A stretch of 6,979 bases of DNA from Symbiobacteriaceae bacterium (lineage in GTDB: Bacteria > Bacillota_E > Symbiobacteriia > Symbiobacteriales > Symbiobacteriaceae). Under the pieces are notes generated by a model. The model was not told the DNA's origin. It did not search any database and saw nothing but the letters and a program-made list of their open reading frames with translations. Positions 341-6,366 of this stretch are shown in pieces; position 1 is the first letter of the stretch; each line of letters opens with the position of its first letter. A program made the position numbers and the translations under genes. The stretch covers positions 1 to 6,979 of the forward strand of contig DAHVXO010000226.1 of assembly GCA_027356675.1 (NCBI GenBank), in the 5' to 3' direction.

Positions 341-835
341 GTGGCGAAAACCCAGGCGAAAGAGCCAGCAGGCGGCATGAAGAGCATCGCTGAGAATCGC
401 AAAGCCCGCCACGACTACTTCGTTGAGGAGACTTATGAGGCGGGCCTCGCGCTCCAGGGAAGCGAGGTCAAGTCTTGTCGGCTGGGCCGAGTCAATCTGC
501 GCGATAGTTACGCCCAGATTCAGAACGGCGAGATCTTCCTATATAATACTCATATCAGCCCTTATGAGCAGGCCAACCGCTTCAACCACGAACCGCTGCG
601 CGTCCGCCGGATGCTCATGCACAAGGACGAGATTCGGCGTCTCTTCAGCAAGGTCCGTGAAAAGGGCTACACGCTGGTGCCACTCCGCCTCTACTTCAAG
701 AAGGGTATGGTCAAGGTCGAACTGGCCCTGGCCAAAGGCAAGCAGTCCTTCGACAAGCGTGACGACATCGCTGCCCGCGACGTCGAGCGCGAAATGGCCC
801 GAGCCGTCCGGGGCAAGTACCGGGACGACGACTGA
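341..835 (+). CDS. smpB: SmpB, tmRNA-binding protein
   Basis: SmpB binds the tRNA-like domain of tmRNA, delivers it to stalled ribosomes and places its C-terminal tail in the empty mRNA channel, starting trans-translation. The 164-residue protein has the family hallmarks: ENRKARHDYF (18-27), GSEVKSCR (40-47), NLRDSYA (52-58), the HISPYEQANRFNHEP block (71-85), and KGYTLVPLRLYFKKG (108-122) followed by VKVELALAKGKQSFDKR (124-140). It ends in the charged helix-forming tail RDVEREMARAVRGKYR that enters the mRNA channel in known SmpB structures. The start is GTG at 341, with GAGGTGA at 328-334 and a 6-nt spacing; an internal ATG at 377 has no comparable site. Length is normal for the family (about 150-165). 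It sits 40 nt upstream of its RNA partner. Confidence 0.97.
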   Translation: MAKTQAKEPAGGMKSIAENRKARHDYFVEETYEAGLALQGSEVKSCRLGRVNLRDSYAQIQNGEIFLYNTHISPYEQANRFNHEPLRVRRMLMHKDEIRRLFSKVREKGYTLVPLRLYFKKGMVKVELALAKGKQSFDKRDDIAARDVEREMARAVRGKYRDDD

Positions 836-848
836 CCCACGGGTTCCC

Positions 849-863
849 GCCGGCCCAGCCGGC
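849..863 (+). other. Hairpin between smpB and ssrA
   Basis: GCCGGC (849-854), loop CCA, GCCGGC (858-863) forms a 6-bp GC-rich hairpin in the 40-nt gap between the smpB stop and the tmRNA 5' end. It has no T tract, so it is not a normal terminator. It could mark or protect a processing site in the smpB-tmRNA precursor; that role is inference. Confidence 0.4.
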
Positions 864-875
864 TACCATATAAAC

Positions 876-1249
876 GGGGGCGAATTAGTCTCGACGGGGG
901 ATGCAGCGTTCAGGATAGCGAGCCGAGGTGCGGTTGCCTCGTAAAACTGGCCGCAGGCATTTAACTGCCAACAACAATTACGCTCTAGCTGCGTAAGCAG
1001 CCTGCGGCCTAGCCGCAGAACGCTCCTCCGGAAAGTGGGCTCCGTGCGCCGGAGTTGTAGCGTCAACTAACGGGCTGTTCCACCCGAGGTCGCCAGGGAC
1101 TCGGGAGGCGAGGAACTTTTCGTGGCTGGTGGGGACCGTAGCCCGCTGCTAGGCGGCGGCCCTCTCGACAATAAATTAGCGGCTACGCTCGTAGAAGTCC
1201 TGTCTGGTGCTCTTTCGGACGCGGGAGGCAGAGCCCGCCGCCTCCACCA
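876..1249 (+). ncRNA. ssrA: tmRNA (transfer-messenger RNA), with atypical T-loop
   Basis: One-piece tmRNA of 374 nt. The 5' end GGGGGCG (876-882) pairs with CGCCTCC (1239-1245), followed by A and an encoded CCA (1247-1249). The conserved 5' block (TCGACGGGG near 891, TAGCGAGCCGAGG, CTCGTAAAA) is present. The tag frame runs from resume codon GCC 967 to TAA 994-996 and encodes ANNNYALAA, giving AANNNYALAA with the Ala carried by tmRNA. The stop codon lies in the loop of hairpin GCTGC (988-992)/GCAGC (997-1001). GGCTACGCTCGTAGA (1182-1196) and CTTTCGGACGCGGG (1212-1225) match the usual 3' portion. Oddity: the T-stem GCGGG/CCCGC (1221-1225/1234-1238) encloses AGGCAGAG rather than a TTCRANT-type loop. 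SmpB is encoded directly upstream. Its 5' end is probably made by RNase P, since CATATAAA (867-874) is too close to 876 to serve as its -10. Confidence 0.96.
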
Positions 1250-1255
1250 ATGCTG

Positions 1256-1295
1256 AAAAAGGCCCGGTGGCAACGAATTGCCGCCGGGCCTTTTT
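1256..1295 (+). terminator. Strong intrinsic terminator of smpB-ssrA
   Basis: GGCCCGG (1261-1267) pairs with CCGGGCC (1284-1290). The stem continues inward through a T-G pair and GGCAA (1269-1273)/TTGCC (1278-1282) to the tetraloop CGAA, giving about 13 pairs. TTTTT (1291-1295) follows, and a matching AAAAA (1256-1260) precedes it, so it may also act on the other strand. It begins 7 nt after the tmRNA CCA. Confidence 0.95.
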
Positions 1296-1403
1296 CGCGC
1301 ATGAAACCGGGCGCCCCCGCAAGGAGTCAAACGGGAAGCGAACTTAGTTTAGCAGTCGACAATTTCCACCGGACACCTGAAAGGCTTTCAATCACCGCAG
1401 GCG

Positions 1404-5030: not shown

Positions 5031-5852
5031 ATGCGGGTAGATGGACGATTGCCCAACGACTTGCGCCCGGTGGTCATCACACGCGGATACATGGAGCATG
5101 CCGAGGGATCCGTCCTCATTGAAGTCGGGAAGACCCGGGTCATCTGCACGGTGACGTTGGAGGAAAAGGTTCCGCCTTTCCTGAAGGGGAGAGGAGAAGG
5201 CTGGATCACCGCCGAATACGGAATGCTCCCCAGGGCGACCGGACAGCGCAGCCAGCGGGAAGTCACACGCGGCAAGCCCGGCGGGCGCACCATGGAGATC
5301 CAGCGCCTCATTGGCCGTGCTTTGCGATCTGTGGTGGACCTGCGGGCCCTGGGCGAGCGGACCCTCTGGATTGACTGCGACGTCGTTCAGGCCGATGGCG
5401 GCACACGTACCGCCTCTATCACAGGGGCGTTTGTAGCGCTGGTGGATGCGTTGGACCGGCTGCGCCGCAGCGGGGGAACGGCTCACCTGGCTGTGACGGA
5501 TTACCTCGCGGCGACCAGCGTCGGGATTGTCGATGGACAACCGTTGCTGGATCTGGCCTACGTCGAGGACTCCCGTGCTGCTGTGGATCTGAACCTGGTC
5601 ATGACCGGCGGCGGCGGCCTGGTGGAGCTGCAGGGCACAGGGGAGAGTGGCCCCTTCTCTCGCGACGATCTTGCGAGACTGATGGCATTGGCAGAGAGCG
5701 GAGTGCAGCGCCTCATCGCCATACAACGAACGGCCCTGGGCGGACTGGGAGCGGAGGTTGAACGACATGCAGGTCAAGCGGTTGGTGCTCGCCAGCAAGA
5801 ACCCCGGCAAGCTCCGGGAGTTGCAGGCGCTGCTCAAGGACTCTGGCATTGA
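5031..5852 (+). CDS. rph: Ribonuclease PH with C-terminal extension overlapping rdgB
   Basis: A phosphorolytic 3'-5' exoribonuclease that trims tRNA precursors at the CCA end, normally as a hexameric ring. The N-terminal [29 protein letters not shown] (24-41), [19 protein letters not shown] (52-70) and [12 protein letters not shown] (85-96) are typical. Phosphate-binding R86 and R126 ([12 protein letters not shown]) are present, as are putative metal ligands D180 and D186 ([16 protein letters not shown]). The family core ends near residue 237 ([10 protein letters not shown]). The frame then runs another 36 residues, rich in Ala, Gly, Arg and Gln, to TGA 5850-5852, overlapping rdgB by 86 nt. 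Typical RNase PH is about 240-255 residues, so the tail is either a real read-through extension or the mark of an indel near the end. A GGGGGAG site (5013-5019) lies 11 nt before the ATG. Confidence 0.95.
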
Positions 5853-6366
5853 TGTAATCGGATTGGACCCCAACTCGCCGGACATCGAAGAGACGGGCAG
5901 TACCTTTGAAGAGAACGCACTGCTGAAGGCGCGGGCGGCTTGCGCGGATACAGGTCTGCCGTCGCTGGGGGAGGATTCTGGGCTCGCCGTGGACGCCCTG
6001 GAAGGCGAACCCGGCATCCGCTCGGCCCGCTGGGTGCCGGGCACCGATGCCGACCGGGTCGAGGCGCTGCTGCGACGAATGTCCCATATCCCAGACGGCC
6101 AGCGCACCGCCCGCTATGTGTCGTGTATCGCCCTGGTCTCGCCCATCGGACAGGAGCACATCGTCCGGGGTGAGCTAGAGGGTGCGATCGGGCACGAGCC
6201 GCGGGGAACCAACGGGTTTGGGTATGACCCGATCTTCGTGCTGCCAATTGGTACGACCACCGCCGAGATTCCCCTGGTCGAGAAGAACAGGATCAGCCAC
6301 CGTGCGAACGCTTTCAAGAAGGCCATGCTGCTCCTGCCGGGACTGCTCGGAGGCCCTTCGGTATGA
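5767..6366 (+). CDS. rdgB: XTP/dITP pyrophosphatase (RdgB/HAM1 family)
   Basis: Hydrolyses non-canonical purine nucleoside triphosphates (dITP, ITP, XTP) to monophosphates and pyrophosphate, keeping deaminated purines out of DNA and RNA. The 199 residues carry [12 protein letters not shown] (8-19), [15 protein letters not shown] (41-55), the metal site [17 protein letters not shown] (67-83), [11 protein letters not shown] (147-157) and the C-terminal [12 protein letters not shown] (172-183). The first Asp of the common DDSGL motif is Glu here (EDSGL), a conservative change. The start is ATG 5767, with GGAGG at 5753-5757 nine nt upstream; a TTG at 5758 would touch the RBS and is rejected. Its first 86 nt lie inside the rph frame. 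Its stop overlaps the next gene as ATGA. The rph-rdgB-phosphoesterase order equals rph-ysnA-ysnB of Bacillus. Confidence 0.96.

Follow-up and report, generated by a model that had tools for sequence, protein, structure and literature searches.

Joint replacement of elbow positions 18 and 55 in the tmRNA of a Symbiobacteriaceae bacterium and in tmRNAs of related bacteria and viral contigs

The 6,979-nucleotide stretch of DNA analysed here (the window) probably carries, judging from sequence comparison, a working tmRNA gene with a second, recurrent solution to the tRNA-like elbow, in which A18 and G55 stand for G18 and U55 and G19-C56 is kept. Positions 18 and 55 have changed together many times among the tmRNAs compared. 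The UUC/GG elbow is treated as near-universal in tRNA and tmRNA.

The one-piece tmRNA model RF00023 scores 153.5 bits on the window (gathering score 47) and is covered over model positions 1-374; the permuted (two-piece) model RF04321 reaches 26.9 bits, below its gathering score of 47. The gene (Table 1) shares with the standard one-piece tmRNA of RF00023 its architecture, an acceptor stem of seven pairs including G3-U70, a tag frame, an encoded CCA and an adjoining smpB gene, which supplies a dedicated SmpB partner. A G3-U70 pair is the mark of alanine tRNA-like domains, and it is found with a tag ending in AA, degron-like in the window, in all seven tmRNAs checked. The window gene differs from the standard in two places, as its T-loop AGGCAGAG is not UUCRANY (canonically U54 U55 C56 R57 A58) and its D-loop has AG (A887 G888) rather than G18 G19. 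T-loop numbering was inferred from the GC[AG] core common to the variants, giving G54 = 1227, G55 = 1228, C56 = 1229, A57 = 1230 and G58 = 1231. The RF00023 alignment leaves the 8-nt loop between the T-stem strands, and in a single-strand fold of the T-arm a 5-bp stem with an 8-nt loop makes up 98% of the ensemble. We also considered whether the T-loop conceals an intron or has taken up an insertion, and rejected this, the loop being just 8 nt long and aligned straight through by the Rfam model. An earlier note, made from the window sequence alone, had described a tmRNA without a UUCRANY loop between otherwise well preserved flanks, and we find its loop, its acceptor pairing, its T-stem and its encoded CCA as it gave them. 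Its wider statement of an otherwise well preserved tRNA-like domain holds for these stems and the CCA but not for the D-loop, where AG replaces GG; this dinucleotide, which would dock on the T-loop, was absent from the note and is the key feature of the present analysis.

Table 1. Features of the tmRNA locus in the window (all on the + strand)
Feature	Coordinates	Strand	Basis or remark
smpB, protein partner of tmRNA	341..835	+	directly upstream of tmRNA; NCBIfam NF003843, 221.3 bits (cut-off 130)
tmRNA (ssrA), one-piece form	876..1249	+	RF00023 match
Acceptor stem 5' strand GGGGGCG	876..882	+	pairs with 1239-1245; includes G3-U70
D-loop AAUUAGUCUCGAC	883..895	+	A18 = 887, G19 = 888; GG in canonical tmRNAs
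Tag reading frame GCC...UAA, tag ANNNYALAA	967..996	+	starts at tmRNA position 92; read from sequence
T-stem 5' strand GCGGG	1221..1225	+	sequence, RF00023 alignment, fold
Non-canonical 8-nt T-loop AGGCAGAG	1226..1233	+	sequence, RF00023 alignment, relatives
T-stem 3' strand CCCGC	1234..1238	+	sequence, RF00023 alignment, fold
Acceptor stem 3' strand CGCCUCC, then A73 and encoded CCA (ACCA 1246-1249)	1239..1249	+	
Possible intrinsic terminator of ssrA (A-run, GGCCCGG...CCGGGCC, T-run)	1256..1295	+	by eye, weak

The hairpin after ssrA was not among the results of a simple terminator scan. Directly before the tmRNA 5' end stands TACCATATAA, both in the window (864-875) and at locus L001 of the nearest genome, with GCCATATAA at the same place in L102; this may serve as a promoter element close to G1 or as a processing leader, and a sigma-70 scan of window positions 800-1400 returned no promoter-like site. 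Further along the window, the rph frame (5031-5852) extends about 37 residues beyond the part that the RNase PH profile matches, and it overlaps the beginning of the frame listed for XTP/dITP pyrophosphatase (5758-6366).

The nearest genome (G001, a Bacillota MAG) and 60 relatives were searched with RF00023, yielding matches over the cut-off in 55 of the 61, all of which were read. A GC[AG] T-loop core together with a D-loop AG was present in 54 of these 55 genomes and in the window, the AG standing where canonical tmRNAs have GG, before a conserved CGA/CGC. The identical 8-mer AGGCAGAG is found at L001, whose SmpB is 79% identical to that of the window and whose tmRNA has diverged from the window's outside the T-loop, and in four further genomes (G002-G005), so the loop is neither an error nor chance; the six carriers lie within one group of the SmpB tree (SH-aLRT 94). 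The earlier note had proposed looking for the loop in relatives and had offered two readings of it, and its local sequence error falls with the recurrence of the same 8-mer in six tmRNAs. Its lineage-specific variant is borne out as a real variant that relatives keep, but not as one confined to the lineage, since tmRNAs of viral contigs carry such a change. Other relatives have the T-loops GGGCAGAA, GGGCAGTTC, GGGCAGTGC, GGGCAGCAC, GGGCAGTAC and GGGCAGCTC, or TGCAACT, TGCAAAT, TGCGATT, TGCGAA and similar loops; the bacterial loci L093, L100 and L111 combine the 6-nt loop TGCGAA with A18. G009 is the sole genome of the 55 with a UUC T-loop (TTCGACT), and it has a D-loop GG. Its tmRNA (L122, minus strand) joins the UUC loop and G18 to a 6-bp T-stem, GCCGGG/CCCGGC, and is a candidate double reversion.

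An automatic count recovered a tmRNA from 157 of 201 bacterial loci, its motifs missing L122 (UUC loop on a 6-bp T-stem), which was read separately. Among loci of unambiguous register, G55 is accompanied by A18 in 85 (67 distinct sequences; 83 loci without the duplicates L081 = L001 and L102 = L116) and U55 by G18 in 50 (29 distinct). Another 22 loci, all with U55, have the ambiguous AGG register that arises where AGG precedes the conserved CGAC, and contradictory combinations (G55/G18 or A18/U55) number zero among the 157 bacterial tmRNAs. Of all acceptor and D-loop sites, position 18 separates the two classes best, with a divergence of 1.0 in the bacterial set and 0.757 in the viral one; the base after G19 comes next (0.477 and 0.356), these class divergences taking no account of kinship. 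The search patterns fixed C56, which was free only in the RF00023 search of the 61 genomes and the reading of the 55. Within the phylum of G001 the variant-arm pattern had matches in 44 of 398 genomes and the canonical pattern in 249; both were matched by G230 and G342, and neither by 107. The only pattern matches of G230, G061 and G342 were judged to be chance matches; the genuine variant arm of G061 lies outside the pattern. Among the first 30 variant loci the D-loop AG was seen in 28, and also in L160; L141 is a chance match. One extra base in the 5' strand of the T-stem (e.g. GCTGGG/CCCGC) is seen in canonical-loop tmRNAs of further genomes of the phylum, such as G148, G110 and G356, and may resemble the oddity that the accessible text of PMC1168896 describes for Carboxydothermus.

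The same coupling was found in IMG/VR contigs, which presumably derive from phages. Three T-arm patterns were compared. A 7-nt TGC arm had at least 120 matches, with a D-loop found in 108 and none in 12 of the 120 listed; an RGGCAG arm had 112 (the complete set), of which 108 passed the stem filter, with a D-loop in 90 and none in 18; and a UUC control arm had at least 120, with a D-loop found in 84 and none in 36 of the 120 listed. Both permuted and one-piece tmRNAs are represented among those with a D-loop, in numbers of 107 and 1 for the TGC matches listed, 65 and 25 for GGCAG, and 51 and 33 for the UUC matches listed. Among the matches listed, TGC arms have A18 in 96 (72 distinct) and an ambiguous register in 12, and UUC arms have G18 in 64 (52 distinct), an ambiguous register in 19 and A18 in one, L388, the sole contrary match, whose D-loop was judged spurious by eye. 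GGCAG arms have A18 in 86 (49 distinct), with one ambiguous (L483) and one neither (L577); L577, L536 and L556 offer no usable D-loop, theirs being judged spurious by eye, and the short D-loops of L536 and L556 were left uncounted. Viral totals for the unambiguous register, among the matches listed, are 221 for G55/A18, many of them near-identical, and 84 for U55/G18.

The T-stem is often longer by one pair in the variants. In bacteria a sixth pair forms in 39 of 83 tmRNAs with G55 versus 1 of 72 with U55. As an exclusive hallmark of the variant it was rejected, since it also occurs with U55 in viral contigs, where 30 of 37 UUC matches form six pairs (G18 in 20, ambiguous in 5), a figure obtained with a pattern built to allow a sixth pair; that search gave one further row of ambiguous register that does not form six pairs. 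The corresponding TGC search gave 53 of 56 with six pairs, and A18 in 39 of the 39 with a D-loop found. Bacterial loops measure 6-8 nt beyond the stem, and up to 9 nt when the sixth pair is not counted. The window has 8 nt, and several relatives have 9, that is, a sixth pair and a 7-nt loop; folding of one such example indicates that, with the extra G-C pair formed, the loop is back to 7 nt (GGCAGNN). In the 8-nt loop of the window the purine mismatch A1226/G1233 may take the place of this extra pair.

The number of independent switches was judged on two trees. On the SmpB tree alone the starred branches force one change only (one starred pair), and as this tree holds too few supported switches the coding half of the tmRNA was used. 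A FastTree was built from 403 distinct DNA sequences of the coding half, with acceptor, D-loop and T-arm columns left out; it is approximate because this short RNA aligns poorly. Here 15 independent starred-branch pairs differ at position 55, and position 18 is concordant in 15 of 15 (p = 6.1e-05). Across 221 aligned positions of the coding half, L543 (GGCAG, A18) and L357 (UUC, G18) share 86% identity. Both positions have also switched in L142 (G401; TGC, A18), which nests on the SmpB tree among canonical rows (87% SH-aLRT), its neighbours L347-L350 being UUC/G18, and this switch is seemingly recent.

In the canonical tRNA elbow residue 18 inserts between T-loop residues 57 and 58 and contacts 55, and residue 19 pairs with 56 (PMC4810234 and PMC7912444, in their accessible parts). 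According to the available text of PMC3968760, tmRNA uses the same loops, the contact between them is reported to be needed for SmpB binding, and the T-loop normally carries m5U and Psi. Compared with this elbow (G18-Psi55, G19-C56), the variant would keep D/T-loop docking and has the G19-C56 bases, but A18 and G55 replace G18-Psi55, and a G-G pair would stand in for U-A at 54-58 in the GGCAG class. G19 and C56 stay while 18 and 55 swap jointly, which suggests that one contact has been exchanged for another and that the elbow itself persists. A18 would then touch G55 directly. The T-loop itself has shifted to a GGCAG core with an altered loop length. The variant tmRNA would still be charged, and its delivery with SmpB and EF-Tu would continue; lacking U at both 54 and 55, it would also escape T-loop modification at these positions, and from its sequence the window T-loop, with G at both positions, should be unable to form m5U and Psi. 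We give about even chances to a fuller account, in which the elbow has a second stable state, A18/G55, to which bacterial and phage tmRNAs have switched many times, perhaps with a return in G009, and in which the GGCAG form, often set on a lengthened T-stem and lacking U54 and U55, makes the tmRNA invisible to T-loop modification enzymes and distinct from the tRNAs of the cell.

The tRNAs and the SmpB proteins found beside the variant bear on whether a single ligand (SmpB, RNase P, a modification enzyme or the ribosome) might instead read positions 18 and 55, the two bases not touching one another. RNase P RNA and the L1 stalk of the ribosome are known to recognise the elbow (PMC4810234, accessible part) and SmpB binds it in the tRNA-like domain (PMC3968760, accessible part), and the base after G19 shifts between the classes too. 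G002, a carrier of the window loop, has 97 RF00005 matches; 30 loci were fetched, in which ARAGORN reads 57 distinct tRNA sequences. A TTC T-loop is present in all 57, directly in the printed output for 56 and with an offset of one base for the last, which reads TTCGAGT; all 57 also pass a loose D-loop test, with GG somewhere in positions 14-24. The elbow change thus looks tmRNA-specific, as far as the tRNAs of this one variant genome tell, and any general elbow reader in G002 must still accept the usual T-loop, which counts against such a ligand. SmpB was found for 148 of the 157 loci and compared in 143 distinct rows, where none of its residues is fixed between the two tmRNA classes, the best difference being an R/K shift at position 54 (divergence 0.41); a co-evolved SmpB residue was rejected as the cause on this ground. 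As the same coupling moreover appears in viral-contig and bacterial tmRNAs, we regard a shared ligand as unlikely. Relaxed constraint, under which SmpB would hold the tRNA-like domain while the T-loop drifts and the elbow contact is lost, would fit the variable length of bacterial loops and the absence of both U54 and A58 from the GGCAG class; drift predicts neither a GC[AG] core in 54 of 54 variant genomes read nor a position 18 that tracks 55 in every credible unambiguous case, and this disfavoured explanation seems very improbable to us. Decay or sequencing damage of the window gene is refuted and keeps hardly any credence, for although ARAGORN misses it, calling neither a tRNA nor a tmRNA anywhere in the window, the same loop recurs in five other genomes, G001 has a single match over the tmRNA cut-off, and the tag with its AA end, G3-U70 and the CCA are intact and, like the adjacent smpB, consistent with retained function.

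A joint A18/G55 replacement therefore remains our preferred reading of the window tmRNA, and part of it has precedents. The accessible text of PMC1168896 (2005) describes a T-loop U342 to G change in Caulobacter crescentus tmRNA, GG for U341 U342 in the mitochondrial tmRNA of Reclinomonas americana, and a possible sixth pair in Dehalococcoides tmRNA; on our alignment U342 of Caulobacter is position 55 and U341-U342 of R. americana are 54-55. T-loop substitution in tmRNA is, on that text, already known and not new, and UUCRANY is typical of tmRNA and not definitive since tmRNAs without the motif are described there. The Caulobacter tmRNA is two-piece and that of the window one-piece, and the same text makes no mention of a change in the D-loop partner, of a GGCAG loop of altered length or of spread in Bacillota or viral contigs. 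A 2025 paper on a tmRNA database of 97,179 sequences treats introns in the T-loop (PMC11915505), and its accessible part does not discuss a T-loop variant of the AGGCAGAG type. Our literature search met no account of 18/55 coupling, with older tmRNA papers partly outside its reach and priority uncertain.

The variant has a practical consequence for annotation and a wider one for the elbow. ARAGORN detected 0 of 26 bacterial GGCAG-class tmRNAs versus 66 of 72 with UUC, and the Rfam model does find the GGCAG class, so that lineages with this loop may appear to lack tmRNA when searched with ARAGORN. The coupled replacement, repeated within one RNA family, in a setting where the tRNAs of G002 are canonical, provides a natural double-mutant series on the need for G18-Psi55 and for the T-loop modifications.
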